Shown here one piece after another: positions 13,857 to 27,942 of a stretch of 54,872 bases of DNA. Position 1 is the stretch's first letter; every line of letters starts with the position of its first letter. The notes under the pieces were generated by a model that had not been told where the DNA came from, made no database searches, and worked only from the letters and a program-made list of their open reading frames with translations. The translations under genes and the position numbers were made by a program. The DNA is from a virus. The stretch lies in IMG/VR virus record IMGVR_UViG_3300009285_002168, positions 1-54,872 of that record; one strand, given 5' to 3'.

Positions 13857-13904
13857 CGTGGGTTTCTCTTCGTCCCTGGCTCGCTCGCCAACCTATGGTG
13901 TCTC
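13697..13904 (-). repeat. 18-bp-periodic ETP/ERA repeat array A
   Basis: Twelve half-units at exact 18-base spacing (+ strand): constant 10-mers TGGCTCGCTC and TGGGTGTCTC alternate, separated by 8-base spacers that all differ. The edges are degenerate (TAGTTCGCTC at the left, ATGGTGTCTC at the right). On the - strand the array reads ETPxxxERAxxx in the frame of the upstream gene, whose last three residues are ETP. Confidence 0.92.
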
Positions 13905-14255: not shown

Positions 14256-14285
14256 AAGCCCATCCTTCCCCTCACATCGTCTGGA

Positions 14286-14513: not shown

Positions 14514-14514
14514 T

Positions 14515-14715: not shown

Positions 14716-15067
14716 GGTCTGCCCCCCTTCCCGTCCCTCGATCTGCTTCCTCCGGCTCTCGCGGAATGGCGCCGGTCTGCCCTTTCGGCGGGGCCTTGCC
14801 GGGTGGGCCATGGAGCACGGTCTCCACAAACTCCTCCGCGAAGGTCTCAAGCTCCGCCGCCTTCCCCAGCTTCTCCGCGAACGCCTGCCCCGCAAACATG
14901 TGGAGCATCGTCAGCTTCAGTGCCCCTGGCACCCCGGCCGCGTACCGCTCCAGCGCCTCGACCGGCATCTTGAAGTGCTTCCGAAATCTCGTGCCGCCAG
15001 TGGCCCGGAGCGCCATACACGCCTTCTCGATCTCGACCATCTCAGCACGGAGTCTCGGCACGGTCAC
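14705..15067 (-). CDS. Helical protein of unknown function after DUF115
   Basis: The product has 120 residues from GTG 15067, which overlaps the stop of the DUF115 gene (GTGA). It is strongly helical with AQ-rich and Glu-rich stretches (KLGKAAELETFAEEFVETV) and a Lys/Pro tail. Its tight coupling suggests a role with the DUF115 protein. Confidence 0.6.
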   Translation of the reverse strand: MTVPRLRAEMVEIEKACMALRATGGTRFRKHFKMPVEALERYAAGVPGALKLTMLHMFAGQAFAEKLGKAAELETFAEEFVETVLHGPPGKAPPKGQTGAIPREPEEADRGTGRGADHGI

Positions 15068-16329
15068 GGCATGCTCTTGTGAAGCCGCTCGAACCACGCC
15101 AGGTTGGCCTCTACGTCGATGGCCTCCTGCGCGGTGTCCTGATTGACCTTCAGCATGTACTTCGTCAGCGCCTCCCGCCAGCGCTCCGGCTCCCCGAGGT
15201 CCGCGAACCGTACTCCACCCTTCTTGAACCGCACACAGTAGTTGCCCACCCGCACCAGGTAGCGCTCGCAGGCAAGCATCTGCTCCTCGTTCGTCCTGCG
15301 CATGGTCTCGGGTATCTGCCCGCCCGATGCGATCATCTCCTCCGGGGCGATGTAGGGAACCTCGCTGATCGTACTATGCGGTGTCGCGCTGATCAACTGC
15401 ATCGGCTCATCCCGGTGGCATTCCAGCCGAGCCACGCAGAACATCGCGCGCTTGTAGAACAGGTTCATAGCGGTCGACGGATAGCCGTTCTCGCTCATGA
15501 CGATGGGCTGACTTTCGGGAGGAGGCGCCGTGATCCCCTCTTGCACCCACTCCCCAGCTTCCCAGTGCCAACCACGAAACCGATAGCGTGCGGGAAGCCC
15601 ACCGTCACCATCGCGCGTGAAGCCGAAATTGTGCCCGAGCATGAAGATCGGATTGTACCCGATGGCCCGCCCGATACCAAGCTCGGCGGCCGGTGAACAC
15701 GCGAAGGGGAGTAGTGCCATCTTGATGAAGTCGTAGGCTGTCGGCCAGATGCTCCAGTAGAGCGGGATCGCGGGATCGCGCGGCAGGTAGTAGTACGACT
15801 TCTGCGGCCACTTGGAGATCAGGTCCGGGTGCGTCCCTGGGTAGGCCGCCTGAACCGTCCCCGGAGCATCCTCCCACCACCCAGGGGGCACCTTGTCGAT
15901 TTCCTCCCAGTTGCATCGCACGTCGCTGTAGACGATGTGCGTCGGCCGCACACCGAAGCGCGCGAGCGTCTGCGCGTGGGACGAGCTGCAAATCAGCCCG
16001 CCTTTCCAGTCCTTCAGCATCGGCAGCACTTCGTCCAGCCCGGGGCCAGAACCCAGGATTACGGCTGGTCCCTTCTGCGTGTCCTCCAGGTCCTTCAGAT
16101 CGAAACCACGTCGGCCTCTCCACCCCGGGTCGTCATCGGCGTCCTGGAAGTCGAGCCAGATCTGCTTGTGGTTCCAGAACGAATGCCGGATCTCATCCGG
16201 CATGATCGCCGAGACGGTCGCCTGGTTGTAGTGCCTGGAGGGGTAGAAGAGATCGAACTCCGATGCCGCCTTCTTCGGCTCCACCGAGTCAACTGCCGGT
16301 TCTATACCAACTCCTTCGGTAATGCTCAT
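15064..16329 (-). CDS. DUF115 / MAF-type protein
   Basis: This 421-residue protein has a Rossmann-like motif GPAVILGSGPGLDEVLPMLK (about residues 87-106), followed by SSHAQTLARFGVRPTHIVYSD, matching the DUF115 family (MptE-like / motility accessory factor). Members take part in flagellin glycosylation with nonulosonic acids or act as pterin pyrophosphokinases, and phages often carry one near the terminase. Later segments (LGHNFGFTRDG) are also typical. It overlaps the nucleotidyltransferase-like gene by 41 bases, hinting at joint function. Substrate unknown. Confidence 0.75.
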   Translation of the reverse strand: MSITEGVGIEPAVDSVEPKKAASEFDLFYPSRHYNQATVSAIMPDEIRHSFWNHKQIWLDFQDADDDPGWRGRRGFDLKDLEDTQKGPAVILGSGPGLDEVLPMLKDWKGGLICSSSHAQTLARFGVRPTHIVYSDVRCNWEEIDKVPPGWWEDAPGTVQAAYPGTHPDLISKWPQKSYYYLPRDPAIPLYWSIWPTAYDFIKMALLPFACSPAAELGIGRAIGYNPIFMLGHNFGFTRDGDGGLPARYRFRGWHWEAGEWVQEGITAPPPESQPIVMSENGYPSTAMNLFYKRAMFCVARLECHRDEPMQLISATPHSTISEVPYIAPEEMIASGGQIPETMRRTNEEQMLACERYLVRVGNYCVRFKKGGVRFADLGEPERWREALTKYMLKVNQDTAQEAIDVEANLAWFERLHKSMP

Positions 16330-17137
16330 ATGCCTCGATTCCTCCTATGTGCTTCTCGAACAAGTGCTCCGCCAACTCCCACTCCCATTCGTAGTCGATG
16401 TGCACCTCTTGCCACGGCTCGACCTCGAACCGCCAGGGGTGCATGTCCATGTACTGCGGGAGCTGGAGCGCCGCTCCCACGTGAGACGCCTCGTAGAACC
16501 GCGGTGTCATCGCGCAAAACGTGTTCATGGTCGTCCAGTTTTCCGCGTACCGCAGATTGCCCGTTTGTTCTATCCGGTAGTGATGCAACGCCCGGTCTCC
16601 GATAGACCCGTAGAACGTCCCTTCCGTCCGCGCGAACGACGTCATGAACTCGACACCCGTAACCGCGTCCGGGTTGGGCGAGGCGAGCTTCTTCGCGAAC
16701 TCCTCGACGAGCCGATCCAGGTCGCCGGGCATCCTCAGCGGGCTCACCACGAAGTCCGTCATCAGGATGTTGATGTTCCGCAAACGGCTCTTTGCCCACT
16801 CGTAGCCGTACCGGCAAGGGAAGCTCCCCGAGTCCTGCGTCGGGTGGTTCATGGTCTCCGGCCGCACTATCACTGTCAGTCGGTCCATCACTCCGGGGCA
16901 CCCCGGCTCCATGGCGCGCAGGGTCTTGAGAATCGCATCCTCATGCTCTGGCGTCTCCCCTACGAGGATAGACTGCGAGATGTGCTTTGACGCCCATGAC
17001 TGGATCGCCCACCACTCGTCGAGCGTCCTCCCGCACAAGAGCCGCGTGAGTTTGTCCGGGAGGCGCTCAGCCGGATTTCTATGCCCGTCCCGCGTCGGCG
17101 CGACCCTCACCACCATCATCTCTTTCCCTTGATTCAT
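16289..17137 (-). CDS. Cytidylyltransferase-like (GT-A fold) protein
   Basis: This 282-residue protein has an N-terminal pattern (APTRDGHRNPAERLPDKL, then LLCGRTLDEWW, then ILVGETPEHED) that follows the order P-x-R ... LP-x-K ... GkpL ... V-D-x-pE of sugar-nucleotide cytidylyltransferases. The end, EVHIDYEWEWELAEHLFEK, resembles the C-terminal motif of CMP-sialic/pseudaminic synthetases. The classical ARGGSK loop is altered, so activity is uncertain. It overlaps the DUF115 gene and follows the sugar transporter genes, supporting a sugar-nucleotide role. Confidence 0.5.
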   Translation of the reverse strand: MNQGKEMMVVRVAPTRDGHRNPAERLPDKLTRLLCGRTLDEWWAIQSWASKHISQSILVGETPEHEDAILKTLRAMEPGCPGVMDRLTVIVRPETMNHPTQDSGSFPCRYGYEWAKSRLRNINILMTDFVVSPLRMPGDLDRLVEEFAKKLASPNPDAVTGVEFMTSFARTEGTFYGSIGDRALHHYRIEQTGNLRYAENWTTMNTFCAMTPRFYEASHVGAALQLPQYMDMHPWRFEVEPWQEVHIDYEWEWELAEHLFEKHIGGIEAYEHYRRSWYRTGS

Positions 17138-17162
17138 CTCGTCGTCCTTTCTCCTGTTGCCT

Positions 17163-17978
17163 TCACAGCTTCACTCCCTCACCGCCAGTGAACCACCGAT
17201 AGCCCACCGCGAAAACGCCCAGCATCGGCAGGAGCATCGCCGTCGCGATGGCCATCTTAAGCCCGTACCCGTGAGGCTTCCACATCGCCGGAGACATGAT
17301 CGTGCTCATCAGCCCGACGATGAGCGTTTGCTTCCGCTCGTCCGGCATCACCAACGATTGCCACAGATAGTCCTGCAAGGCGCCGAGACCCGTGAACGTC
17401 AGGACCAGCGCTATCACCGATCCGCTCATGGGCAACACGATGCTCCAGAGGATGCGCCACTCGCCGGCTCCCGCTATCCGCGCGTCGTCGAAATAGTCCC
17501 CGCCGATCCTGAGTAGATGCGCCCGCGAGTAGAGAATCCCAAGCGGGGATACCGCCAGCGGAAGCACCGCCGCTACCACTCCTGTCCCAAGCCCTATCAG
17601 CCGCAACGTGAGAAACCTCGGGATCACGAAAATCATCATGGGCACTATCGCCCCGAACATCGTCATCCCGACGACCACCCGGTGCCCCAGGAATTTGTGA
17701 GCCAGCGCGTAGCCAGCGGCCACCGCCGTAACCGTCGCGCTGGATACAGACAAGACCGTGACCAGGAGCGTCATCGCGGCCCACCCTGGGATGAGCATCC
17801 CCTCCGTCCAGATGATTCGGTAGTTGTCGAACGTCAACGATCCAGGAGCGATAGACGGGGGGATCCTCATCGTACCTATTCCGCCTGCCTGGAAACTCCC
17901 GAGCACCATGACACCAGTCGGCAGGAGTAGCACGACTGCGAAAAGCACCACGAAGGCAATCCCGATTATCCGACCCAC
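17163..17978 (-). CDS. ABC sugar transporter permease (MalG-like)
   Basis: The product has 271 residues from GTG 17978, which overlaps the end of the other permease by 13 bases. An N-terminal membrane helix (IIGIAFVVLFAVVLLLPTG) is followed by five further spans. The coupling motif is present as DDARIAGAGEWRILWSIVLP, a slightly altered EAA loop. MalG-type subunits pair with a MalF-type subunit to form the channel. The third subunit needed, an ATPase, is not encoded in the window, so a host ATPase would be required. Confidence 0.85.
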   Translation of the reverse strand: MGRIIGIAFVVLFAVVLLLPTGVMVLGSFQAGGIGTMRIPPSIAPGSLTFDNYRIIWTEGMLIPGWAAMTLLVTVLSVSSATVTAVAAGYALAHKFLGHRVVVGMTMFGAIVPMMIFVIPRFLTLRLIGLGTGVVAAVLPLAVSPLGILYSRAHLLRIGGDYFDDARIAGAGEWRILWSIVLPMSGSVIALVLTFTGLGALQDYLWQSLVMPDERKQTLIVGLMSTIMSPAMWKPHGYGLKMAIATAMLLPMLGVFAVGYRWFTGGEGVKL

Positions 17979-18814
17979 TTCCTCACCCTCTGTACCACTC
18001 CCGCAATCGCCATGACCACTCCGAGTAGGACCACGCTCTGCGCCGCGGCCATCCCGTATCGCTGGCGCGTGAAAGCTGACTCCCATGCCGCGTAGATCGC
18101 CGTGGCCGTGGCCCCATCGGGCCCTCCTCGGGTCAGGACCCACGGCGTCTCCCACATGGTGAAGCCGGACGCGAGCCCCGAGAGAGCCATCAACGCAACC
18201 GCTCCCGATACCCACGGCAGATCGACGTACCGCCAAACCTGCGACGCCGATGCCCCATCCAACCGCGCCGCTTCCCGCAGCTCCTTCGGCACCCCTTCAA
18301 GCGCGCTCCCCAGCACCACTACTACCGTTCCGACAATCGCCAGTTGTACCGTACATCCGATCACGAATATCGCCGGCCAACGCTCCGTCAGCCACCGCAC
18401 CGGCGCAAGCCCAAGACCCCCCATCACAGCGTTTGCCAACCCTCCGCTCGCGAACACCATGAGCCACATCTGCGAGATGATGATCCCGGCAGATATGCTC
18501 GGGAGGTACATCGCGGCGCGTACGATCCCTCTGATCTGCTTGGGCATCCCCGAGGTCGGGAACGCCACAGCCGCGCCAAGTCCTACCCCGAGCACGATAG
18601 AGAGAGCGCTGTAGATGAGGCTGTTGACGAGTGCCGTCGTCCAGTGCGGGTCTCGGAACATTTCCACGTAGTTCCGCAGACCGATCCAGGACGAGGTAAG
18701 GAGCGAGCTGTCTTGAAACGAAAGAGCCGCGACACCGGCAAGCGGCGCTACCCACAAAAGCAGTAGCAGTAGCGCCGCTGGGGCGACCATGGCGAGGTGC
18801 GCCGGTCGTGTCAT
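17966..18814 (-). CDS. ABC sugar transporter permease (MalF-like)
   Basis: The product has 282 residues from ATG 18814, overlapping the binding-protein stop (ATGA). The first span is MVAPAALLLLLLWVAPLAG; the periplasmic SFQDSSLLTSSWIGLRNYVE is typical of the family. The EAA coupling loop is clear (LREAARLDGASASQVWRYVD then LP). It ends with a basic tail. Its length and six spans match carbohydrate CUT1-type permeases. Confidence 0.88.
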   Translation of the reverse strand: MTRPAHLAMVAPAALLLLLLWVAPLAGVAALSFQDSSLLTSSWIGLRNYVEMFRDPHWTTALVNSLIYSALSIVLGVGLGAAVAFPTSGMPKQIRGIVRAAMYLPSISAGIIISQMWLMVFASGGLANAVMGGLGLAPVRWLTERWPAIFVIGCTVQLAIVGTVVVVLGSALEGVPKELREAARLDGASASQVWRYVDLPWVSGAVALMALSGLASGFTMWETPWVLTRGGPDGATATAIYAAWESAFTRQRYGMAAAQSVVLLGVVMAIAGVVQRVRKWVG

Positions 18815-20157
18815 TTTCCGGCCAGAATCTCGTTGACACGCTTCTCGTACGTGGCGAGTGCCGCCTCCGGCGTGGTCTTTCCGTTGTACAACTCGACGAG
18901 TCGCGGGAAGAGCTCGCCCCGGATTGCAGAGTATCCGGATAGCGTGTAGCCCACGTCCATGATCCCCGCTTTCTGCACGATCTCGTTGACCACCTTCCAC
19001 GCCGCCACGTCCTCGGCGCTTCCGTTCGGTACCTCCGCCACCCCTCGTATCGTCGGCCAACTGCCACCTATCGAGGCCATCGTCTCATCCTGGTAGGCAC
19101 GGTCACCGAGAGCCGCCGCGAGCTGGCCCGCAAAGCTATCGAGCCTGCCGTTGCCGCTCTCCCCCACCACCGCAGTCGATCCGGCGCCGAGGGTCGGGAC
19201 CGCCGGCACACCCGGGCCGCGAGGGAAGGGGTACATCACCCAGCGGAAAGCCTTCGCGATCATCTTCTGATCGAGCGCCCCTTTCATGAACGCCGCCACC
19301 CAGTCCGGTCGGATCGGCATGGCCGCCACGATCCCGCGCTGCCAGAGCTCCAGCGCCGCATCGTCCCACAGTTCCGCGCTGTCCATCGGCGCGTATCCCT
19401 TCTGGACGAGCGCTTGGAGAAACCGCAGCGTCGCCACTCCCTGCGCGCTGTTGATCGCTGTCCGCGTGTAGTCCCCTCCGACGAACACCTGCGCACCGAA
19501 TGAGCCGAACCAGTTCATCCACAGGTAATCCGCGGAGGCGCTCTTGGCGAAGAGCGCTGTCCCCCACTTGCCGGGGAGCTTCGCCTTGACCGCCTCGCAC
19601 ATGGCCAGGAAAGCATCAATCGTCCAGTCCTTCGCGTCAGGCAGTTTGTAGCCCGCCGCGTCGAGCAGATCGAGATTGAGCGCGATCCCCTGGAGCGGAA
19701 CGACACCCGGCACACCGAGCAGCAGCCCTCCGCGCTGCCACGGTACGAGATCAAAGTAACCCTTCACGTCCACGTACGGCGTGAGGTCCATCGCCTTCCA
19801 CCCCGCCGTTCGGATCATGAACCGCGAGGCCCTCCCAGTGAAATCGTTGTAGACGTTCGGGTACGCCCCGGCCGCAACCAGCGTGTCCATGCTGATCGTT
19901 GTACCGTCGGCCAGGTTCAGATTGAGCCAGCGCACCGCCAGCTCCACCGGCTTCGACCGCTCGATCAGGCGAGCGATGGCCGTGTCGTATTGCGGCCCTT
20001 TGCCGCCCAGTAGAGTCAGCGTCACCCGCTCGGGTTCCGGCCCCTTCTCCTTCTTGGTCAGATACAGCTTCCCGTTTTCCACATTGGGCGACGCCCAGGC
20101 CAGGCCAGCGACAACCATCGCCAACAGAAACCACACCGCGCTCTTCACACTCCTCAC
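18811..20157 (-). CDS. ABC sugar-binding protein (solute-binding family 1)
   Basis: The product has 448 residues from GTG 20157, chosen because GGAGGAGG lies 5 bases upstream. A signal peptide occupies about residues 1-22 (SAVWFLLAMVVAGLAWA), without a lipobox, so it is likely secreted or periplasmic. The mature part has the fold of family 1 carbohydrate-binding proteins: ALNLDLLDAAGYKLPDAKDW, WMNWFGSFGA, a hinge near AAMPIRPDW, and a C-terminal helical EVVNEI segment. It heads a three-gene operon with both permeases. Substrate unknown. Confidence 0.85.
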   Translation of the reverse strand: MRSVKSAVWFLLAMVVAGLAWASPNVENGKLYLTKKEKGPEPERVTLTLLGGKGPQYDTAIARLIERSKPVELAVRWLNLNLADGTTISMDTLVAAGAYPNVYNDFTGRASRFMIRTAGWKAMDLTPYVDVKGYFDLVPWQRGGLLLGVPGVVPLQGIALNLDLLDAAGYKLPDAKDWTIDAFLAMCEAVKAKLPGKWGTALFAKSASADYLWMNWFGSFGAQVFVGGDYTRTAINSAQGVATLRFLQALVQKGYAPMDSAELWDDAALELWQRGIVAAMPIRPDWVAAFMKGALDQKMIAKAFRWVMYPFPRGPGVPAVPTLGAGSTAVVGESGNGRLDSFAGQLAAALGDRAYQDETMASIGGSWPTIRGVAEVPNGSAEDVAAWKVVNEIVQKAGIMDVGYTLSGYSAIRGELFPRLVELYNGKTTPEAALATYEKRVNEILAGK

Positions 20158-20364
20158 GCTATCCTCCTCCTCGGCCACGCGCCGAGTCTATCGAGACTAC
20201 CCTCTCACGGAGTAGCCGACGAACCGAGTTGTCTTTCTTGATCCAGCTTGTCTCTGAAACGGGAAGTTGCCCTACTGTGGATTGAGCCGAGAGATGAGAC
20301 TGTACCGATGCTGTCCGTCAATTCACGCTCCGTCTACGGTCGCGCTATCGTCGCTTCGTCCTTA

Positions 20365-20448
20365 CTATAGCCCGGGGCGTGTCTTCGTGTCCAGTGGGTT
20401 TCCGCTTTGCCCCGGCTTGAACGGTCTTCCGACTACTCTCTTTTCCAT
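20365..20448 (-). pseudogene. Truncated DUF5681-type gene remnant
   Basis: A 27-codon frame from ATG 20448 begins MEKRVVGRPFKPGQSGNP, the DUF5681 signature also present in the small terminase-like gene at 13119-13493, then stops (TAG) after TKTRPGL. No continuation is seen in other frames. It looks like a fossil of a small terminase-like gene carried with the island. Confidence 0.55.
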
Positions 20449-20517
20449 GCTGTACCCCCGCTGTTTCCAGCGCCCCCCCTTGGTTTCCCGATGTTCTCGC
20501 CACAATACTACACACCC

Positions 20518-20551
20518 GTATAGTATGCCATCTTTTCGCGATATGCTATAC
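20518..20551 (+). promoter_or_regulatory. Inverted-repeat operator with extended -10 of ASCH gene
   Basis: Arms GTATAGTAT (20518-20526) and ATGCTATAC (20543-20551) form an 8/9 inverted repeat. The right arm overlaps TGC-TATACT (20544-20552), an extended -10 box. Only 7 bases separate it from the ATG at 20560, so the mRNA is predicted to be leaderless. The left arm contains TACTAT on the - strand, so it could drive the transporter operon too. No good -35 is seen. Confidence 0.5.
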
Positions 20552-20559
20552 TGTGTCGC

Positions 20560-20859
20560 ATGAAATCTCTTTGGTTCAAGGCCCGCTACGTCCCATCAAT
20601 TCTGACAGGTGAGAAACGCGACACGGCCCGTCAATCGGTGCGCGTACGCGTAGGAGAGGTCGTGCAATTCTCCGTGGGCCCGCGACAACCGTTTGCCATC
20701 GCTCGCATCACTGCTATCCGTGTCTGCCCGTCGGATCGGGCAATACAGGCCGACGCCTGCTACTCCGATATCTCATCTCTTACTCTCATCGAATTTGAGT
20801 TGCTGCAATCTTCCACTCAGTGTCAGCAAATCCTCTCGCACCATGATCTGAGTGCGTAA
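20560..20859 (+). CDS. ASCH-domain-like protein
   Basis: This 99-residue protein begins MKSLWFKARYVPSILTGEKR, then TARQSVRVRVGEVVQFSVG, matching the start of ASCH (PUA-like) domains: hydrophobic strand, IL-x-GeK-R-x-T-x-R, and v-Gd-v. ASCH proteins bind RNA or modified nucleosides. It is the only convincing + strand gene, and its 3' end overlaps the convergent acetyltransferase-like gene by 87 bases. The transcript appears leaderless. Confidence 0.55.
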   Translation: MKSLWFKARYVPSILTGEKRDTARQSVRVRVGEVVQFSVGPRQPFAIARITAIRVCPSDRAIQADACYSDISSLTLIEFELLQSSTQCQQILSHHDLSA

Positions 20860-21225
20860 CCTTCGGCCCTGTTTAGGTCGTCCCACTTTTCGATAGCCCA
20901 GTTTCTCGAACCACGACACCGTGTCTTCCAAAGCCCGTATCCAATTTACCTCTAACCACCGCACTATCCATGCCCCAAGGCCGCTGTGCCGACATTGAGG
21001 CAACACATTCAGCACCAACAGCGTATTGCGTCGCGGATTCACTAGCGCGACTGCCGCGTCGTCGCCGCCGACACGAAAAAAAAACAGCCCGCCGTTACTG
21101 GCGTTTCGCATAACAGTTTCTCTCCCAACAAAAGTCGGATGCTTACCTCGATCCAAAAGGCGCTTGAATCTATCGTACTCGGCGCTTGAGCCGACTACGA
21201 CTTGCGGATGTGACGCTTCCCGCAT
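20773..21225 (-). CDS. GNAT-like acetyltransferase
   Basis: The product has 150 residues from ATG 21225 (GTG 21234 is also possible). The core pattern AVALVNPRRNTLLVLNVLPQCRHSGLGAWIVRWLEVNW resembles the acetyl-CoA loop and following helix of GNAT proteins (R/Q-x-x-G-x-G/A), and SWFEKLGYRKVG matches the typical FYxKxGF end strand. It overlaps the ParB-like gene by 31 bases; phage ParB-like and GNAT genes are often adjacent. Substrate unknown. Confidence 0.6.
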   Translation of the reverse strand: MREASHPQVVVGSSAEYDRFKRLLDRGKHPTFVGRETVMRNASNGGLFFFRVGGDDAAVALVNPRRNTLLVLNVLPQCRHSGLGAWIVRWLEVNWIRALEDTVSWFEKLGYRKVGRPKQGRRLRTQIMVREDLLTLSGRLQQLKFDESKR

Positions 21226-21749
21226 TTGGGGCACACACAGGATCCGATAGTCGTCTGAGATGAGTCATGATCCAGCTCTGCGGGTATCTCCATAATCGCC
21301 AGACTATCGCGTAAGCGTCCATCGAACTCCACAAGCGATTGGATGAGACTGTCATCTAGATAGATGCCATCCAGATCGATCATCTCCGTCAGATACGGCG
21401 CCAACAGACTCGCCTCAGGATCACCATGAATCGTATTCAGATTCACCGCGATACGTTGCGTTTGCTTTTTTGTCAGAGCAACGACAACTGCCGGTATCTC
21501 TTGCAAACCCAACTCTTGCGCCGCAAGAAAGCGATGATTCCCGCTGATTACCTCATAGCGGCCTGAACGCGCCCGTCTTACGAGAATCGGCACCAAAAAT
21601 CCATCTCTTTGGATCGACGTTTTCAGTGCCGTCATCTGCTTCTCGGTCAGATACTGCGGGTTGCGTCGCAAGAGATCGCACGATGTCACCGGAATCAACC
21701 GATATTCTCGCGTTCTTTCTCGTTGTTTATGAATCGCTGTCTTACTCAT
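21195..21749 (-). CDS. ParB-like protein with C-terminal zinc ribbon (copy 1)
   Basis: This 184-residue protein has the ParB/Srx-like nuclease domain: NPQYLTEKQMTALKTSIQRD, FLVPILVRRARSGRYEVISG, then NHRFLAAQELG (the GxHR motif as SGNHR). The C-terminus carries CVCPKCGKRHIRK, a zinc-ribbon half-site. The region is less GC-rich than most of the genome. It is translationally coupled to a 36-codon ORF upstream and to the GNAT gene downstream. Confidence 0.75.
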   Translation of the reverse strand: MSKTAIHKQRERTREYRLIPVTSCDLLRRNPQYLTEKQMTALKTSIQRDGFLVPILVRRARSGRYEVISGNHRFLAAQELGLQEIPAVVVALTKKQTQRIAVNLNTIHGDPEASLLAPYLTEMIDLDGIYLDDSLIQSLVEFDGRLRDSLAIMEIPAELDHDSSQTTIGSCVCPKCGKRHIRKS

Positions 21750-21856
21750 CGTCGCGATCTCCCTTCGGGCTCGATCTTTTCCAGAGGAAGCGCCTCGGTG
21801 TAGCCATGGCAGGTCACCGCGATTGCCTTTCGCGCTTTCGCGTGTCCGGTACGCAT
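21746..21856 (-). CDS. 36-residue ORF coupled to ParB-like gene 1
   Basis: It starts at ATG 21856 and its stop overlaps the ParB start (ATGA). The peptide is basic (MRTGHAKARKAIAVT...) with no recognisable domain. It fills the only gap in an otherwise continuous chain of overlapping genes, which supports it. Confidence 0.45.
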   Translation of the reverse strand: MRTGHAKARKAIAVTCHGYTEALPLEKIEPEGRSRR

Positions 21857-21857
21857 G

Positions 21858-22175
21858 CTATCCCTTCCTGCCGAACCACCGCTTCCGCGTCGGCTTCACC
21901 GGTACCTCGGCAAGCGCCTTCTCCCATGCCTTGACGAACCGCTCGCGCTCCATCATCGCGGCCGCGAAGTCCTCCCCAAAGAGAAACGTCCAGCTCTTCC
22001 CGAGGTGGGCGATGATAAGATCGTCCACCATGAAACCCCAGTCCTCCGTCTGCCCCTTGTGCTGGTCGTCGATTGAGCGCATGTCGCAAATGCCAGTCAC
22101 CCGCCGGATCGTCGCCGACACAGCGAGGATGCTCGACCCGCCCCGCGTCCCACGTACCTCATGCAGTATCACCAC
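21858..22175 (-). CDS. Protein of unknown function
   Basis: The product has about 105 residues from GTG 22175, after AGGAGGTAG. It has a mixed alpha/beta look: MVILHEVRGTRGGSSILAV, then KSWTFLFGEDFAAAMMERER. No family is recognised. The previous gene stops within 2 bases of the start. Confidence 0.55.
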   Translation of the reverse strand: MVILHEVRGTRGGSSILAVSATIRRVTGICDMRSIDDQHKGQTEDWGFMVDDLIIAHLGKSWTFLFGEDFAAAMMERERFVKAWEKALAEVPVKPTRKRWFGRKG

Positions 22176-22176
22176 C

Positions 22177-22488
22177 CTACCTCCTCCCAAGCCAGTTCAC
22201 GAGCCGATCCTTATCGTCGGTTCCTTCGATCTGGATGATCTTCGCCTGCCCGTACTCCAGCCACCGAATCTGCCACACGGGTATCTCGCCCGGCACCTTG
22301 ATCTCGCGCACGTCCACGAGGTAGCGCTCCGTGTTCGGCGCCCCGGCCTCCGCGAGTAGATGCCCGACAAGAAAGCCCACGGCGCCAGCGGCGCAGACGG
22401 ACACGATGACGAACGTGATCGCCCACCAGAACGGGATGTCCCGCTTGCCCATCTTCGGTTGCGCCGTGTGCACCATCGTGGTCGCCAT
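22177..22488 (-). CDS. Membrane-anchored protein of unknown function
   Basis: This 103-residue protein has one predicted span (FWWAITFVIVSVCAAGAVGFL, about residues 20-40), then a soluble beta-rich domain (RYLVDVREIKVPGEIPVWQI, RWLEYGQAKIIQIEG). The start ATG 22488 overlaps the previous stop by one base. Possibly an envelope-associated modifier. Confidence 0.6.
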   Translation of the reverse strand: MATTMVHTAQPKMGKRDIPFWWAITFVIVSVCAAGAVGFLVGHLLAEAGAPNTERYLVDVREIKVPGEIPVWQIRWLEYGQAKIIQIEGTDDKDRLVNWLGRR

Positions 22489-22637
22489 CAGCTCGCCTTG
22501 CCTTTGGGTATCATCGCAGCTTTCACGAGCCCATCAAGCCGACGGACGATCTCGCACAGCCGCCGAACCTGGCGAGCCGAGACATACGCCGGGGCCTTCT
22601 CGGCACGCAGCACGTCTACCTCTTCATCGTGTTCCAT
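22488..22637 (-). CDS. Small helical protein
   Basis: The product has 49 residues from ATG 22637, overlapping the ParB-like copy 2 by 14 bases. The sequence VSARQVRRLCEIVRRLDGLV is a helical basic motif. Possibly a DNA-associated accessory; unknown. Confidence 0.5.
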   Translation of the reverse strand: MEHDEEVDVLRAEKAPAYVSARQVRRLCEIVRRLDGLVKAAMIPKGKAS

Positions 22638-23448
22638 GCTTCGCCTTCTTCTGCCACTTCCCCTTTGCGGGCCGCACCGGCCGCACTGCCGCAAGCTGCC
22701 CGCCGATCTTCTGGAGGTCCGCCTTCAACGCCATGAGGTCCCCGCCCAGGCGCAGCTTCAACACGAGCGTCGTCCCGTCATAGACGTAGATGCCGAACCG
22801 CCCGTTCCACTCCGCCATCACCTCGCTCGGGTACTTCGCCGCGGCGTCATCATTCGATTCCCGCGATGCATCGTAAACCTGGCGAGAGCTCCACTTCTTG
22901 GCCACCGCTTCCTTGGCAATCCCGCGCGCCTTCTTCGGGTCCGCCATGGACATGCGGATGACGTGAGCTTCCGGCAAAGCGTCGATGTCCTTCGCGTCCG
23001 CACCCGCCTCGATCATCCGCTCACGGGACGCCACGTAGCGGTACTTCTCGTGGACCCAGTCGTAGGACTTGTTCAGAAGGTCCGCCGCCTCGCGCTGCGT
23101 CAGCCCGGGCAACTCCTTCCGCATCTCCTCGATGGCCTCCACGATCTCCACGGCCGAAAGCTGCCGTCTCTGGATGTTCTCCGTTAACCGCAGGATCGGG
23201 ACCTCCCGCTCGGGCACGTCCACGATGATGCAAGGGGCGATCTTCTGTCCGGCGTGGATGAGCGCCGCTAGTCTGCGGTGCCCGGCGATGCAGACGAACT
23301 TCCCATCATCCCGCCGGACTACGATGGGCTGAAGCAGCCCGTACTGCGACACCGACTTGGTCAGGTCGCGCACCTCCTCGTCTTCCCCCGGCCGCCGGAT
23401 GATCTTCCCGGCCCCGATCATGCTGACGGCGATCTCGCGGAACTTCAC
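22624..23448 (-). CDS. ParB-like protein with KorB-type helix-turn-helix (copy 2)
   Basis: The product has 274 residues from GTG 23448 (GTGA overlap). The ParB core motif is VCIAGHRRLAALIHAG, with RLTENIQRRQLSAVE following, as in ParB/Spo0J proteins. A helix-turn-helix follows (LTQREAADLLNKSYDWVHEK). The C-terminus is basic. No ParA is encoded in the window, so partition is doubtful; DNA silencing, nuclease or transcription roles are possible. Confidence 0.75.
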   Translation of the reverse strand: MKFREIAVSMIGAGKIIRRPGEDEEVRDLTKSVSQYGLLQPIVVRRDDGKFVCIAGHRRLAALIHAGQKIAPCIIVDVPEREVPILRLTENIQRRQLSAVEIVEAIEEMRKELPGLTQREAADLLNKSYDWVHEKYRYVASRERMIEAGADAKDIDALPEAHVIRMSMADPKKARGIAKEAVAKKWSSRQVYDASRESNDDAAAKYPSEVMAEWNGRFGIYVYDGTTLVLKLRLGGDLMALKADLQKIGGQLAAVRPVRPAKGKWQKKAKHGTR

Positions 23449-23585
23449 GGGCGCACCGCCGGGACCACCACGTTCGACAGGAACCAGATCGCCACACAGA
23501 TCGCCACCAGGACCAGCGCGCAGACGAATTCGGCCCTCTGCGTGGGTGTCAGCGTCCTCTTCCACGAAATCAGCGGTTTCAACAC
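23445..23585 (-). CDS. Single-span membrane peptide upstream of ParB copy 2
   Basis: The product has 46 residues from GTG 23585, preceded by AGGAGGT at good spacing. One span (FVCALVLVAICVAIWFL) is flanked by a basic N-terminus. It overlaps the ParB start (GTGA). A small envelope protein of unknown role. Confidence 0.55.
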   Translation of the reverse strand: MLKPLISWKRTLTPTQRAEFVCALVLVAICVAIWFLSNVVVPAVRP

Positions 23586-23613
23586 CTCGCACCTCCTGTA
23601 GATCTCGCTACGG

Positions 23614-23629
23614 GCTACAATACTGTAGC
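23614..23629. promoter_or_regulatory. 16-bp perfect-arm palindrome, candidate operator
   Basis: GCTACA-ATAC-TGTAGC has 6-bp inverted arms around a 4-base centre. It overlaps the end of the ribbon-helix-helix gene and lies 29 bases upstream of the GTG start at 23585. It could be an operator for a neighbouring dimeric regulator such as the ribbon-helix-helix protein. This is unproven. Confidence 0.35.
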
Positions 23630-23848
23630 TGCAACGTCCTCTTCCCCATCCGCACGGGTTCGCCTACCTTTCCGCTCCTCTCCGCCCTCCTTGTCGCGGA
23701 TCGGGTACCGCTTCATGCACTGCCTGGTCGCATGCACCAACAGGCTCGACAGGCTCCGGTCGTCGCGCCTGGCGTAGTCCTCCACCTCGCGCCAGAACGC
23801 TGGGTCGGCCGTGATGGACCGCTTCCGCGCGTCTCTCATCCGGGTCAT
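23615..23848 (-). CDS. Ribbon-helix-helix-like protein
   Basis: The product has 77 residues from ATG 23848, overlapping the previous stop (ATGA). The core KRSITADPAFWREVEDYARR, then SLSSLLVHATRQCMKR, fits a strand followed by two helices, as in CopG/Arc-like dimers. The acidic-basic tail is disordered. A DNA-binding regulator is likely. Confidence 0.55.
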   Translation of the reverse strand: MTRMRDARKRSITADPAFWREVEDYARRDDRSLSSLLVHATRQCMKRYPIRDKEGGEERKGRRTRADGEEDVAATVL

Positions 23849-24093
23849 CGGCTCGGAGCCGACGGATTGCACGGCCCACCGTGCCGATCTGCCTTCAGTT
23901 TTGACCCTTCGAGCGCGGTCTCGTCGTACCACTTCCACTCATGGGGCCTCCCGTCCTTGTCGAGCTTCTGGTCGAAAACGCCGTACGTGTTGCAGCCCGT
24001 CATGTACTGCGTCCGGGCCATGACTATCCCCGAAAACGGACTCCATCTGTCCTGGACCTTCTCTCCGACCGAGAACGCAAATTCGCTTACCAT
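23845..24093 (-). CDS. Small beta-rich protein of unknown function
   Basis: The product has 82 residues from ATG 24093, preceded by GGAGAGAGG. It contains FSVGEKVQDRWSPFSGIVM, then CNTYGVFDQKLDKDG, which looks like a small SH3-like or KOW-like barrel. The C-terminal end is basic. Function unknown. Confidence 0.55.
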   Translation of the reverse strand: MVSEFAFSVGEKVQDRWSPFSGIVMARTQYMTGCNTYGVFDQKLDKDGRPHEWKWYDETALEGSKLKADRHGGPCNPSAPSR

Positions 24094-24163
24094 TTCCTCT
24101 CTCCTTCCGCCGGCCAGATTGGCCGGCTGATTCTGTTGGCGATGGCTACTGCCTCGCCGTGCT

Positions 24164-24731
24164 TGGCTCGCTCGCAAGCCTTGGGTGTCTCGCACGTGAT
24201 GGCTCGCTCCTCCACTTTGGGTGTCTATCCGTTCTTGGCTCGCTCCTCGATCCTGGGTGTCTCGTCGGTACTGGCTCGCTCCTGGTTCGTGGGTATCTCG
24301 TTTTGCCTGGCTCGCTCTTCGCGAATGGATGTCTCGGCCCCCATGGCTCGCTCATGCCTCTTGGGTGTCTCATCTCTGATGGCTCGCTCGTAGGACATGA
24401 GTGTCTCCCCTACCCTGGCTCGCTCCCAACCGTTGGGTGTCTCACAGGCCACGGCTCGCTCCTCTCGACTGGGTGTCTCTGACTCCCTGGCTCGCTCTGT
24501 GCCGTTGGGTGTCTCCATCACGATGGCTCGCTCCTCGATCCTGGGTGTCTCCGGAATGTTGGCTCGCTCGTCACGACTGGGTGTCTCGTGGCTCCTGGCT
24601 CGCTCGTCCCGCCTGGGTGTCTCGCCAAAGGTGGCTCGCTCACTTGTTCTGGGTGTCTCATGGAAGATGGCGCGCTCCCCGACACTGGGTGTCTCGTTGA
24701 ACGTGGCTCGCTCGCCGAGCGTGGGTGTCTC
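24164..24731 (-). repeat. 18-bp-periodic ETP/ERA repeat array B (main array)
   Basis: Thirty-two half-units at perfect 18-base spacing alternate TGGCTCGCTC and TGGGTGTCTC (+ strand), separated by 8-base spacers. All spacers differ except CTCGATCC, which occurs twice, both times after TGGCTCGCTC. A few cores are mutated (TGGATGTCTC, TGAGTGTCTC, TGGGTGTCTA, CGGCTCGCTC, TGGCGCGCTC). The right end is TGGCTTTCAT, which holds the start codon of the repeat ORF. Confidence 0.95.
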
Positions 24732-24749
24732 GAGCGAAATGGCTTTCAT
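24225..24749 (-). CDS. Repeat protein (ETPxxxERAxxx)n
   Basis: The product has 174 residues from ATG 24749, one base after the stop of the IS110-like gene. After MKAISL, it is 12-residue repeats ETP-xxx-ERA-xxx, about 14 copies, with three variable residues in each half. It stops because a core base change turns a GAG codon into TAG; three more half-units lie beyond. The protein is charged, with Pro every 12 residues, and probably extended. It shares MKA-xxx-ETP with the start of the IS110-like gene. Function unknown; the repeat may act at DNA or RNA level instead. Confidence 0.6.
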   Translation of the reverse strand: MKAISLETPTLGERATFNETPSVGERAIFHETPRTSERATFGETPRRDERARSHETPSRDERANIPETPRIEERAIVMETPNGTERARESETPSREERAVACETPNGWERARVGETLMSYERAIRDETPKRHERAMGAETSIREERARQNEIPTNQERASTDETPRIEERAKNG

Positions 24750-24750
24750 C

Positions 24751-25683
24751 TCAGGCGCTGTGCTTCTTGTTCAGGTATTCCTCCTGGTACGACGGCCGCA
24801 CCTCCAGCCCCTCCAGCGTCCGCCACGCCACGTATAGATCGCGCAGGAAGCACTTGACCATGTAGCGGTTCGCTGCTTTATGTTGGTGCCCCGCCTTCGG
24901 CCGCTTCGGGTCCGTCGGGTTCTTGCTCGCCGTCCCCCAGTCGCTCGACTCCAGCCGGTGCTTCATGTCGTCGTAATACCTCCGGTAGGGGCTGTTCGAT
25001 TTCAGGAACGATGACCCGAGCACCCCGAGCATCTTCGCCTTCAAGAACGAGTTGAAGGGGCAAACGAACCCCTTCGCCTTCTTGTCCCCCCGGATCATGT
25101 CCTCTGTCGCGACGAGGGTCCGCTCTCCTCCCTTCTTTTTCCATACCTTGCCGTGGACCTGCCCTGGGTTCATCCCGCTGAACTGCCACATTTTGCTCAC
25201 GGTCGTGGCGATGTAGATGTTGAACTGAGTGATGATGACAGCGGTCATCATCTCGCCGACGCCCTTCACGTCGCGGAGGAAGTCGATCCAGAGCGGGTGC
25301 TTGCGGATCAGCCGACCAACCTCCAACTCCATCTCGTGCTCCAGTGCGAGGATGCTGTCTCGGCGCTTCAGGAGGATGACGAGCATTCCAGGGTCACGGT
25401 CGGGACGGCCCTTTTTTGCCTCGCCGTCCTTGGTCATCCCGAGCTGGCCGTCCAGTGCCGTGCGCTCCTCCTGGTAATCGTAAAAGCAGCGCGTGAAGAT
25501 GCGAAGCGATTCCATCTGCTCGGGGGTGAAGATGCGCTCAGGTGTTCTGGGTGTCTCCGGTGTCCTGGCTCGCTCGCTCGCGCTGGGTGTCTCTACTTGT
25601 ATGGCTCGCTCGCTCTCAATGGGTGTCTCAACTCCGTTGGCTCGCTCTTTCTGCGTGGGTGTCTCGTGATCCTTGGCTTTCAT
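24751..25683 (-). CDS. IS110-transposase-like protein with ETP/ERA repeat N-terminus
   Basis: This 310-residue protein has three parts. Residues 1-48 carry ETP/ERA repeats (MKAKDHETP...) continuous with array C. About 58-125 form a helical region (RIFTRCFYDYQEERTAL). About 130-300 resemble the IS110/IS116 C-terminal Transposase_20 domain: helix-hairpin-helix RDVKGVGEMMTAVII, then KMWQFSGMNPGQVHGK, KAKMLGVLGSSFLKSNSPYR and a C-terminal helix. The RuvC-like DEDD N-terminal domain of IS110 is absent. It is coupled to a ParB-like gene upstream and to the repeat ORF downstream. Mobility is not shown. Confidence 0.65.
   Translation of the reverse strand: MKAKDHETPTQKERANGVETPIESERAIQVETPSASERARTPETPRTPERIFTPEQMESLRIFTRCFYDYQEERTALDGQLGMTKDGEAKKGRPDRDPGMLVILLKRRDSILALEHEMELEVGRLIRKHPLWIDFLRDVKGVGEMMTAVIITQFNIYIATTVSKMWQFSGMNPGQVHGKVWKKKGGERTLVATEDMIRGDKKAKGFVCPFNSFLKAKMLGVLGSSFLKSNSPYRRYYDDMKHRLESSDWGTASKNPTDPKRPKAGHQHKAANRYMVKCFLRDLYVAWRTLEGLEVRPSYQEEYLNKKHSA
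25548..25683 (-). repeat. ETP/ERA repeat array C, encoding the N-terminus of the IS110-like protein
   Basis: Seven half-units at 18-base spacing plus the start unit TGGCTTTCAT (25674-25683), which contains the ATG. Spacers differ from those of arrays A, B and D. On the - strand the phase is exactly that of the other repeat ORFs, giving MKAKDHETPTQKERANG and so on. Confidence 0.92.
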
Positions 25684-25685
25684 CT

Positions 25686-26390
25686 TCACACCTTGACCTT
25701 CGCCACGATCTCGCGGATCGCCTCGGCCAACTCCGTGAGCACCGCGATGGACTTCGCGTCGTACTCGATAGAGCCGTAGGCCCGCAGCGCTTTCAGCAGC
25801 ATGTGCGCGTGTGCCATCGGCGGGCTCCCGTTCGCCGTCCTTGCAAAATGCTCCTGTTCGGCATCCGCCTTCTTCCCGTCCAGATGCTTCACAAGCTCCA
25901 CCGCCGCCGCGGACACGGCGATCTTGCTCCCGTCCTGGGTCGTCAGCGACCGGCCCTCCACGAGCGTCCGGCACCGCTCCACGTCCATGTCCAGAGCTTC
26001 CGCGATCCGCGGCCACGGCACATGATCCCGGCGCATCCCGAGCGCGAAGTGAGTCACGTCCTTCGGCGTCAGTTGCAGGCTCCCGCTGTTGGCGAAGTGC
26101 GCCGCGTCGATCCTCATGGCGATCTCGTCCGCATACTCGCGCAGCACCACCTCGGTTTCCGCGTCTTCCCCGAGCACGTCCAGGTATGCTCTGCACCGGT
26201 GGAAACCGTCGATGATCCGCAGGCTCGCCGCATCCACGATGATCGGCGTGTTGAACTTGCGCCCCGACTTCAACACCTCGCGGAGCTTGGTGACGTTCGT
26301 TGAGTCGAGTTTCCCCGCTTCATGGCGCGGCCACAAATGCCAATCCTGGATCAGCTCCAGCACCTTTACGGTCTTCGTCTTGTCTCCCAT
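25686..26390 (-). CDS. ParB-like protein (copy 3)
   Basis: The product has 234 residues from ATG 26390. A ParB/Srx core is present: NTPIIVDAASLRIIDGFHRCRAYLDVLG, with GFHR as the family motif. It is followed by a helix-turn-helix-like region (TPKDVTHFALGMRRDHVPWPRIAEALDM) and a helical C-terminus. It ends two bases before the IS110-like start, so the two are probably co-translated. A longer upstream frame would run into array D. Confidence 0.7.
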   Translation of the reverse strand: MGDKTKTVKVLELIQDWHLWPRHEAGKLDSTNVTKLREVLKSGRKFNTPIIVDAASLRIIDGFHRCRAYLDVLGEDAETEVVLREYADEIAMRIDAAHFANSGSLQLTPKDVTHFALGMRRDHVPWPRIAEALDMDVERCRTLVEGRSLTTQDGSKIAVSAAAVELVKHLDGKKADAEQEHFARTANGSPPMAHAHMLLKALRAYGSIEYDAKSIAVLTELAEAIREIVAKVKV

Positions 26391-26487
26391 CGGGAATCTC
26401 TCTTTCCGGCTCCGGACGGAGCCTGCGTGTTCCGGCGTCGTGGGACGCTCTCCCTTCTGCCCTTCTCTGAATTGTGGACTTGCTATC

Positions 26488-26640
26488 TTACTTTGGAAAT
26501 CGCTCAAATTCTGTGGGTGTCTCCCAATCCTTGGCTCGCTCCAACATGATGGGTGTCTCTCGCTCCTTGGCTCGCTCGCTTTTCTTGGGTATCTCGCCAG
26601 TGATGGCTCGCTCTTCGTGTCTGGGTGTCTCGCATACCAT
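26488..26640 (-). CDS. 50-residue ETP/ERA repeat ORF
   Basis: It starts at ATG 26640 (MVCETPRHEERA) and continues in the same ETP/ERA phase across array D, ending ERFPK. It lies between the helix-turn-helix gene and the ParB-like copy 3. The ATG sits in the position taken by TGGCTTTCAT in the other arrays. No clear ribosome site is visible, so expression is uncertain. Confidence 0.4.
   Translation of the reverse strand: MVCETPRHEERAITGEIPKKSERAKERETPIMLERAKDWETPTEFERFPK
26514..26631 (-). repeat. ETP/ERA repeat array D
   Basis: Seven half-units at exact 18-base spacing with alternating cores (one reads TGGGTATCTC) and unique spacers such as CAACATGA and GCCAGTGA. The next unit on the right is degenerate (TGGCCCGGTT). 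The orientation and reading phase match arrays A, B and C. Confidence 0.9.
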
Positions 26641-26651
26641 GGCCCGGTTCC

Positions 26652-26852
26652 CTACTTTCGCTGTTCGCCATACTTCCCCACGATGAGCCGCTCAACAACG
26701 GCCGCGTCGAAGTGCGCTACGAGCTGGCCCCGCGACTCCGGCAACGCCAGATTGCGGACCGATTTCATCTTCGACCTCCTGAACCATCGAAGCACGCTGG
26801 ACTTATCCATGCCGAGGCGCTCTGCCACGGCCTCCGCCGTCAGTAGATTCAT
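26652..26852 (-). CDS. MerR/Xis-like helix-turn-helix protein
   Basis: The product has 66 residues from ATG 26852, preceded by GGGAGG. The sequence NLLTAEAVAERLGMDKSSVLRWFRR is a winged-helix, excisionase-type recognition module (HTH_17). The remainder, ALPESRGQLVAHFDAAVVERLI, fits the wing. A clear promoter sits just upstream. A likely regulator of the accessory segment. Confidence 0.7.
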   Translation of the reverse strand: MNLLTAEAVAERLGMDKSSVLRWFRRSKMKSVRNLALPESRGQLVAHFDAAVVERLIVGKYGEQRK

Positions 26853-26870
26853 GACCAACCTCCCGACACT

Positions 26871-26900
26871 ATACTACCATACCTTACCGCACCGCGTCAA
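26871..26900 (-). promoter_or_regulatory. Promoter of the HTH and ParB/IS110 segment
   Basis: On the - strand, TTGACG (26895-26900) and TAGTAT (26871-26876) are separated by 18 bases, close to sigma-70 consensus. The ATG of the helix-turn-helix gene follows at 26852 after GGGAGG. It lies downstream of the 26916-27302 gene. Confidence 0.6.
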
Positions 26901-26915
26901 GCCCGTGGTCTCGGC

Positions 26916-27302
26916 CTACCCCGCGTCAGCCGTGGTCTCGATCCCGTCATCCTCATGCATCTCACCCAGCGTTCCCTGCTTCGCCTCGGCGCTCTCCGTA
27001 GCCAGAATCCTCCTACCCTCCTTGGAGAACAGGAATGCCGTCACCACCGGTTTCTCCGGCGCCAGCCGCATCGACGTCTCGATCTCGACCCGCGCCGCGC
27101 TCCGGTCATCGGTCGGCTTCAGTTTCAACTTGACGTTGTAGATACGCGTGATCCCCGGACTCGTGCTATCGTCTGTGATGTTCTGGAGAATCCGCTCCAG
27201 GTCCCGAGCGAACACATCCCGCAACGTCCCCTGCCCGAGCGTCGCCAACTCCACAGGCTGGCCCGCCGCAATCTCGATGCCATCGGCCTTCTTCTTTCTC
27301 AT
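26916..27302 (-). CDS. Unknown protein, mixed alpha/beta
   Basis: The product has 128 residues from ATG 27302, after GGAGGAGATAG. It contains GTLRDVFARDLERILQNI, then RIYNVKLKLKPTDDRSAARVEIETS, like a small nucleic-acid-associated or substrate-binding fold. The acidic tail is disordered. The adjacent RuvC-like gene stops 2 bases upstream of the start. No family recognised. Confidence 0.55.
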   Translation of the reverse strand: MRKKKADGIEIAAGQPVELATLGQGTLRDVFARDLERILQNITDDSTSPGITRIYNVKLKLKPTDDRSAARVEIETSMRLAPEKPVVTAFLFSKEGRRILATESAEAKQGTLGEMHEDDGIETTADAG

Positions 27303-27303
27303 A

Positions 27304-27942
27304 CTATCTCCTCCCGTTGATTGTCGAATGCCACACCGCAAGCAGCGCGTCCCGCAGCTTCTTCCCTCCCTCCGTGAGTTTCGCCGTCTCGTTCAGCGCC
27401 GACTCGGCGGCCGCGCAGATCAGCCGCGCCTCAGCTTCATGCGTGCTCTCCGCCCGAAACCCGAACCATCGCTCGACCTCGGCCAAGTACTTCTGCTCCC
27501 GCGCCTTCGCTCCCTTCCCGGCGACAATTCCAAATCGGTTGATCGTCAGCGCCCGCCACGTCCCAACCGGCACCTCGATGACCGGCCAGTGCCTCGCGAG
27601 CACCGCGCGTACGATCCCCCCGACCTCCGCCTGGAGAGTCAGTGCATTGCCCACCGCACCGAATGCATAACCCTCAACGAGCGCCACGTCGACGCGCCCG
27701 GTAGCCCACCGGATGACGTGACCGATCTCCTCCTCGAACGTGTCCATGAACGCCGAGAGCCGGTCTGCTTTGCCCTCTTCTCCGGCGACCTTCACGCGCC
27801 GCACCTCGGTGTCCTTATCCCGCGTCGCCACGATGGCCGTCCCGCGCAGCGATGGGTCAACCCCGACGTAGCCGAGAACCTTCCGCCCCATGACCACCAA
27901 ACCTGCTCCTTCCCCTTGCTCGGCGCGGCTCGCAATTCTCAT
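27304..27942 (-). CDS. ruvC: RuvC-like Holliday junction resolvase
   Basis: The product has 212 residues from ATG 27942 (ATGA overlap), or 195 from ATG 27891. RNase H-fold motifs are in order: GYVGVDPSLRGTAIV (first Asp), VALVEGYAFGAVGNAL (Glu), and THEAEARLICAAA at the C-terminal acidic position. Members cut branched DNA, supporting recombination or packaging. It is a separate gene, while the IS110-like protein lacks a RuvC-like domain. Confidence 0.75.
   Translation of the reverse strand: MRIASRAEQGEGAGLVVMGRKVLGYVGVDPSLRGTAIVATRDKDTEVRRVKVAGEEGKADRLSAFMDTFEEEIGHVIRWATGRVDVALVEGYAFGAVGNALTLQAEVGGIVRAVLARHWPVIEVPVGTWRALTINRFGIVAGKGAKAREQKYLAEVERWFGFRAESTHEAEARLICAAAESALNETAKLTEGGKKLRDALLAVWHSTINGRR

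Follow-up and report, generated by a model that had tools for sequence, protein, structure and literature searches.

The closest described counterparts of the locus analyzed here are the TIGR-Tas systems, which the main text of Faure et al. (2025, PMC12045711) defines by arrays of two alternating repeats of 8-12 nucleotides (nt), with spacers of 8-9 nt and a unit of about 36 nt. One kind presented there, TIGR-TasA with TasParB, combines a solo Nop-domain protein with a parB-like gene in the same operon, is located in phages, and comes with dual-repeat arrays of 10-nt repeats that lie upstream, downstream and sometimes between the genes. According to the same text, 36-nt guides have been demonstrated for other Tas proteins, a Rho-independent terminator after the array is typical but not defining, and it is still open what TIGR systems target in nature, what TasA does and how the arrays grow. 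Within the published literature searched, preprints aside, the word tasParB occurs in that paper only. Here, we analyze a viral contig of 54,872 nt (IMG/VR record IMGVR_UViG_3300009285_002168; hereinafter the window, i.e. the whole stretch) and argue that three consecutive minus-strand open reading frames (ORFs) in it very probably make up a TIGR-TasA system with TasParB, the middle, IS110-like ORF being tasA. The system is of a known kind, with an unusual array position and a testable natural-target lead that lies outside the window.

The initial annotation of the window singled out a tight cassette of a ParB-like ORF (26390-25686), an IS110-like ORF (25683-24751) and a repeat ORF (24749-24225), and re-reading of the minus strand confirmed the coordinates, the common direction and the gaps of 2 and 1 bases. 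The assignment of the IS110-like ORF (24751-25683, with the core at 24751-25539) to tasA is based on both sequence and fold. Searched with phmmer against solved structures, the core matched TasH (E = 2.4e-9) and TasR (7.5e-9), and a profile built from eight relatives raised these matches to 3.2e-38 and 2.9e-37, respectively, compared to 9.1e-4 for the IS110 transposase IS621. In a tblastn search, the core also retrieved TasH of the Salicola phage CGphi29 (E = 5e-8, 63% of the query). The predicted structure (predicted local distance difference test score, pLDDT, 81.1) had only TasR and TasH chains among the top 11 Foldseek hits, with VIA Z-scores of 20.0 for TasH, 18.9 for TasR, 14.5 for IS621 and 8.0 for Nop5. 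The profile aligns to residues 67-300 of the 354 in TasH and 119-313 of the 331 in TasR, that is, past the N-terminal nuclease parts of these proteins; the residues ahead of the Nop part in the window protein are encoded by array sequence only, and no nuclease domain was seen. Because no nuclease domain precedes the Nop part, we identify the protein as TasA. SpTIGR, the TasH system of CGphi29, has the same 8-nt spacers (16 nt in all in the main text of PMC12045711), but its effector contains an HNH nuclease, and none was seen in the window protein. No Tas was found in the PLSDB plasmids, and some searches for Tas relatives, one in viral contigs and one in genome contigs, gave no match.

The arrays agree closely with the published architecture. 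The 36-nt unit consists of an edge repeat, GAGCGAGCCA, and a loop repeat, GAGACACCCA, that alternate, each followed by 8 variable bases (10+8+10+8), and the pattern GAGACACCCA-N8-GAGCGAGCCA, with up to 3 mismatches, occurs 28 times in the window compared to none in 100 shuffled versions. Altogether, the 30 units are grouped into four arrays, each of them on the minus strand. Array 1 (26496-26649, 4 units) lies upstream of tasParB; array 2 (25535-25683, 4 units), which the initial annotation does not mention, follows the ATG of tasA directly (ATGAAAGCCA) and is in frame at the N-terminus of this gene; array 3 (24146-24749, 16 units) contains the repeat ORF; and array 4 (13697-13922, 6 units, the upper bound partly inferred) is located about 11 kb from the tas locus, some 0.6 kb upstream of the terminase large-subunit gene (11893-13122; PHROG 2, E = 1.5e-31), with no tas beside it. 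The edge and loop repeats share a GAG start and a CCA end; in the relatives, the two repeats often change together (contigs G007, G008, G019 and G025), but not always (G017, G018, G020, G024 and G028). The edge repeat is truncated at the array starts, to AAAGCCA in arrays 2 and 3 and to GGGCCA in array 1, arrays 1 and 2 end in GAGCG, and the end of array 3 is degenerate. Across 30 contigs, 320 of 351 units have 8+8 spacers. Thus, alternating repeats, shared box motifs, truncated edge ends and an adjacent Nop protein without a nuclease domain are all present, as in TIGR systems. An array far from tasA was also observed in G003 (at positions of about 1.0-1.2 kb), and G011, a contig without a Tas match, has arrays at positions 2.5 and 15.2 kb; the guides of such arrays may act in trans.

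The protein encoded directly upstream of tasA (25686-26390, minus strand) has no Pfam match but hits PHROG 1033 (E = 1.5e-4), and its model (pLDDT 87.8) retrieved the ParB N-domain structure 5k5d (E = 7.8e-7) and the ParB-CDP structure 6sdk (7.1e-6) in Foldseek. Superposition with the Myxococcus xanthus ParB-CDP yielded a VIA Z-score of 11.6 and a root mean square deviation of 1.9 over 92 residues, so that, judging from the modeled structure, TasParB has the ParB CTP-binding fold. It shares this fold and a helix-turn-helix (HTH) region with the ParB/Noc/KorB family, but reads GFHR in place of the GERR-type motif. A Tas match was found in 27 of the 30 virus records searched, and a TasParB profile (E threshold of 0.01) hit 16 of these 27 contigs (15 of the 26 that are distinct), in every case on the strand of tas and no more than 653 nt from the Tas match, and gave no other match in the 30 contigs scanned. 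One contig, G029, is a near-duplicate of G019; it is included in the 351 units and the 16 of 27, and is left out of the later counts, whereas G026 was taken without its last 979 bases. A wider set of 162 loci, found mostly by the repeats and obtained after dropping 31 loci that shared at least 30% of their sampled 40-mers, contained 104 tas ORFs in 102 loci. TasParB was detected near tas in 23 of these, a 24th match lay 2.0 kb from a tas ORF, and there was none in the loci without tas. This linkage backs the functional unit proposed in the initial annotation, for which failure of the genes to be conserved together would have been the contrary outcome; the 11 of 27 tas contigs without TasParB nearby count against its being obligatory. 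The ParB-Tas-array unit, accordingly, is real but optional. The same repeat arrays also occur on stretches with no tas match, in contigs of metagenome-assembled genomes of Dehalococcoidia/Dehalococcoidales (L091, L094, L095, L097, L099, L101 and L103) and of Aenigmatarchaeota (L098), and no tas was found in the whole genomes of L091, L098, L099 and L103; these binned contigs may be proviral fragments or binning errors, or accompany a more distant Tas.

Given that the 8-nt 3' overhangs in the main text of PMC12045711 appear to imply it, the target geometry was set as one strand carrying spacer A and, after 0-2 bases, the reverse complement of spacer B. Under this geometry, self-targeting by the window guides was rejected: 29 units matched the window itself, at 13 or more of 16 positions, in 58 places compared to 43-74 in 20 mispaired controls. 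Larger scans, in contigs that may be fragments, gave the same picture. The 313 units from 29 contigs with 8+8 spacers had no self-sites with at most 1 mismatch, compared to a mean of 1.8 in 40 controls, and 20 sites at 2 mismatches compared to 28.7 ± 4.3; 1565 exact 36-nt units (from 1621, with 56 repeated spacer pairs collapsed) had no exact self-site and a single one-mismatch site compared to 2.2 ± 1.5 in the controls.

Three other readings of the locus have to be weighed against a TIGR-TasA system. The IS110-like protein could be a transposase or stem from a decayed IS110 element, with the spread or upkeep of the repeats as its role. PHROG 4285, which matches the TasA of the window (E = 1e-38) and of the prophage discussed below (1.4e-54), is labeled a transposase, six of the eight relatives reach Pfam Transposase_20 with E values of up to 0.1, although the window protein does not, and the fold resembles that of IS621. 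TasA shares a Nop-like RNA-binding part with the IS110 transposases IS621 and ISCro4. However, these transposases carry an N-terminal DEDD/RuvC catalytic domain (main text of Faure et al. 2025, PMC12045711), which the window protein lacks, the alignment with TasH and TasR starting only past their nuclease parts; it is accompanied by an array instead of a bridge RNA; both its profile matches and its fold are far closer to Tas than to IS621; and the gene is intact beside arrays in many phages. We therefore regard this reading as the least probable of the three, and PHROG 4285 perhaps comprises Tas proteins under a wrong name. Array maintenance, one of the functions that had been suggested for the cassette, likewise found no support, the protein having no transposase catalytic domain (array-building enzymes were not searched separately).

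Alternatively, the repeats might encode a genuine repetitive protein (ETPxxxERA), the cassette then comprising three protein genes as originally thought. The spacer codons of the four window arrays are indeed devoid of stops in the repeat frame (none in 60 spacers compared to 4.1 ± 1.9 expected, P = 0.017). In the relatives, however, the repeats are kept as nucleotides while the frame shifts and contains stops (65 in 656 spacers compared to 74 ± 8 expected), and selection against stops in arrays generally was rejected on this count; furthermore, array 3 runs past the stop of the repeat ORF, a TAG that is itself a mutated repeat (TAGACACCCA), and the product has no Pfam or PHROG match. A protein-coding role thus appears very improbable: the first two ORFs of the trio encode proteins, and the third is a guide-RNA array rather than a member of a protein family. 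Finally, the ParB CTP-binding fold of TasParB and its tight linkage to tasA would fit an RNA-guided partition device in which guides pick parS-like sites on the phage's own genome; this possibility, hardly less remote, is at odds with the self-site scans, none of which rose above the controls. Among these readings, a TIGR-TasA system with TasParB accounts best for the locus, and the proposed DNA targeting is supported by TIGR-Tas membership as judged from sequence and fold matches, but at this particular locus is only to be presumed.

New in the present analysis, besides the candidate targets and the recurrence of single spacers described below, is the position of arrays inside tasA reading frames; the kind of system itself has already been described (Faure et al. 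2025, PMC12045711), and the main text of that paper contains none of the terms "in-frame", "in frame" and "open reading frame". The likely start codon of the window tasA, an ATG preceded by AAGG at a distance of seven bases, is separated by 2 nt from the tasParB stop, and the four units of array 2 are read in frame between it and the Nop domain. There is no ATG or GTG between array 2 and the start of the Nop match. In the loci L020-L022 (55-58% identical), tasA starts at the parB stop and there is no array at the junction, i.e. the site is empty. In-frame arrays were found in four other loci, which, together with the fourth window array 11 kb away, depart from the TIGR-TasA systems described in the main text of PMC12045711. 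In L041, the array has its own upstream start and tasA is cut by the contig end; in L196, 15 edge repeats are in frame with no ATG or GTG between the array and the domain; L086 is similar, but has ATGs within the array; and in L012, nine units (1448-1763) are in frame in the middle of tasA, between two halves of the gene, the ORF (911-1984) being open throughout. The nine units of L012 are flanked by CMAC and CKNC, as if placed in a zinc-ribbon loop. Two points temper the significance of this arrangement: an internal start of the window tasA at Met57, just inside the Nop match, is possible, and only 5 of the 104 tas ORFs passed the array-in-frame test. Several other tas ORFs are open upstream but start later, and two loci outside the five have an array near tasA in another frame, before the gene in L151 and at its C-terminal end in L192. 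In many loci, the array begins about 20-50 nt from the tasA stop, and in G002, G010 and the prophage of KBS 96 (see below), the stop is part of the first edge repeat (TAGCCA).

A lead on natural targets came from Acidobacteriaceae bacterium KBS 96, the sole named, non-metagenome genome with a TIGR-TasA prophage that turned up, which seems to originate from an isolate. The prophage encodes an integrase (128.8-130.0 kb; PHROG 1, E = 6.3e-38) and TasA (136.0-136.8 kb), the latter followed by six units. Guide 2 has a single exact match, 16 of 16, in the 6.7 Mb genome (6329962-6329977), guides 1, 3, 4, 5 and 6 have none there, and base composition predicts about 0.04 exact matches for the six guides together. 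The guide 2 site falls within an excisionase-like gene (PHROG 66, E = 3.7e-6; Pfam HTH_17 above the cut-off) that belongs to a second integrated element, about 10 kb in size (6322-6332 kb, in the stretch L237, G030:C1:6322001-6338000). This element, possibly a small prophage or a satellite with capsid genes, encodes an integrase, a repressor, the excisionase-like protein, a head protease and a major head protein. It is flanked by ordinary chromosomal genes, on the left for a sulfatase, an outer-membrane receptor and a LacI regulator, and on the right for a pseudouridine synthase, ScpB and ScpA. The next gene of the operon is matched by two more guides: guide 5 has 2 mismatches to it, which fall at the outer end of spacer A, and guide 6 has 3, two of them synonymous and one a Glu/Gln replacement. 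All three sites have a gap of 0 in the predicted geometry; for the other orientations and for re-paired spacers, the best fit in the 1.2-kb region has 3 mismatches. At least two of the other five guides fell within 3 mismatches in 1.2 kb in only 2 of 3000 shuffles, and none of the 317 other 1.2-kb windows in the genome stretches examined holds even two guides. The second target gene resembles phage replication genes by eye, and the relative of this gene in the prophage itself (58% identity over 124 residues) differs from guides 5 and 6 by at least 5 and at least 4 mismatches, respectively. KBS 96 offers a concrete test case: of the six guides of one prophage, three fit a pair of adjacent genes in another element.

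Several observations weigh against reading these matches as targeting. The 1.2-kb region was picked after the matches had been seen, and in a single lysogen; when the 10-kb element is taken as a whole, the shuffles give 0.03 (0.0035 in a stricter form), and with gaps of 0-2 these values become 0.21 and 0.03. Guides 1, 3 and 4 have no close match in the 1.2-kb region (4-7 mismatches). For the second target gene, Pfam gave no match and PHROG a single weak one, of unknown function; relatives of this gene were found in 1 of 237 family genomes, KBS 96 itself (in two places), and in none of the IMG/VR or phage records. Exact sequences of guides 5 and 6 do occur in IMG/VR (14 and 13 stretches, respectively), with no relative of the target genes there, and look like chance. 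No TasParB was found in the 36 kb around the KBS 96 tasA, so that any role of TasParB may not carry over. Neither does a wider comparison help: targeting between TIGR phages found no support, the early excess in the 313-unit set (37 one-mismatch cross matches compared to 25.6 ± 5.6, and 2 exact ones compared to 0.18) not standing clear of the orientation controls in the larger set. There, a comparison of 1565 units with 1.87 Mb of DNA, most of it TIGR-bearing, yielded 296 cross matches at one mismatch, more than the 249 ± 15 of the mispaired control (the largest of 100 being 285) but not clearly more than the 287, 239 and 269 of the other orientations; exact matches numbered 3, against 7, 3 and 7 (orientations) and 4.1 (mispaired). 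On the strength of the sequence matches, the aiming of the KBS 96 system at rival integrated elements is a strong candidate, not proof; that rival mobile elements are the targets of such systems at large seems plausible, if somewhat short of an even chance.

The composition of the arrays carries a statistical sign of spacers moving singly. Among 13,238 within-locus pairs of the 1621 units, 13 are identical as whole units, and exact repeats of individual spacers within loci number 34 for A/A, 33 for B/B and 7 for A/B, compared to about 1 each predicted from cross-contig rates. A shared spacer with a different partner was seen in 41 cases; for 27 of them, the partners agree at no more than 4 of 8 positions, as random ones mostly do, and the neighbor across the edge repeat matches at 6 or more of 8 positions in only 3 of the 27. 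The other 14 cases look like diverged copies of a unit. An example from the window is the B spacer GGATCGAG, present in the units at 24551 and 24263. Single spacers, then, recur within arrays, mostly keeping their A or B place. Covariation of A and B, or palindromic guides, was considered and rejected: the A-B identity of 2.11 (2.15 ± 0.03 under rotation) and the A-rc(B) identity of 2.07 (2.02 ± 0.03) differ from expectation too little to be read.

These observations can be combined in a simple model. A single transcript starting near 26.9 kb would carry the HTH gene, array 1, tasParB, array 2 with tasA, and array 3. The array RNA would be bound by TasA and cleaved at every edge repeat by a host RNase, which would yield guides of 36 nt, each with a pair of 8-nt spacers. 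Loaded with one such guide, a dimer of TasA would then bind DNA in which one strand reads spacer A plus the reverse complement of spacer B, unwinding and bending it, and, lacking a nuclease, might act as a block that is helped or spread by TasParB. The likely targets would be rival mobile elements and not the genome of the phage itself, because the window guides have no self-match above chance and three of the six KBS 96 guides fit the early genes of a second element. With four units in frame after the likely tasA start, the cutting of guides from the in-frame array should destroy that tasA message and so could limit TasA once it is made; this self-limitation, possible in the loci where array and effector share one frame, strikes us as doubtful. 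In its full form, the model presents phage TIGR-TasA systems as nuclease-free, RNA-guided weapons against the excisionase operon of rivals that spare the phage's own related gene, acquire further guides when single 8-nt spacers are paired anew and, in the phage of the window and some others, cut guides from the effector message as a brake. We put this combination forward tentatively, as less likely than not.

Upstream of the cassette, the run begins with a small HTH ORF (excisionase/regulator-like; 26858-26652, minus strand), which matches PHROG 66 (E = 7.2e-4) and Pfam HTH_17 (E = 4.9e-4, under the family cut-off), followed by a 50-residue ORF (26640-26488, minus strand) that is open in the repeat frame of array 1; the relatives of the HTH ORF adjoin an array in L014 and lie about 1 kb from one in L009. 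The promoter claimed for the HTH gene corresponds to a weak consensus-scan site (26871-26900, minus strand) that agrees at 9 of 12 consensus positions and has a TG before the second hexamer, with 1 such site found compared to 0.5 expected from shuffles. A GC hairpin past array 3 (24109-24127) lacks a T run on the minus strand, and a scan of 23700-27400 revealed no Rho-independent terminator on that strand; Rfam gave no match in 13400-27400. Two more ParB_N genes, at 22624-23592 and 21195-21749 (Pfam, E = 1.4e-13 and 6.8e-16, respectively), are both missed by the TasParB profile. Further away, the stretch 17163-20178 encodes, in a row, a pair of ABC-transporter permeases (Pfam BPD_transp_1) and a solute-binding protein of the extracellular type (SBP_bac_8), which, in a phage contig, represents either unusual cargo or host DNA.

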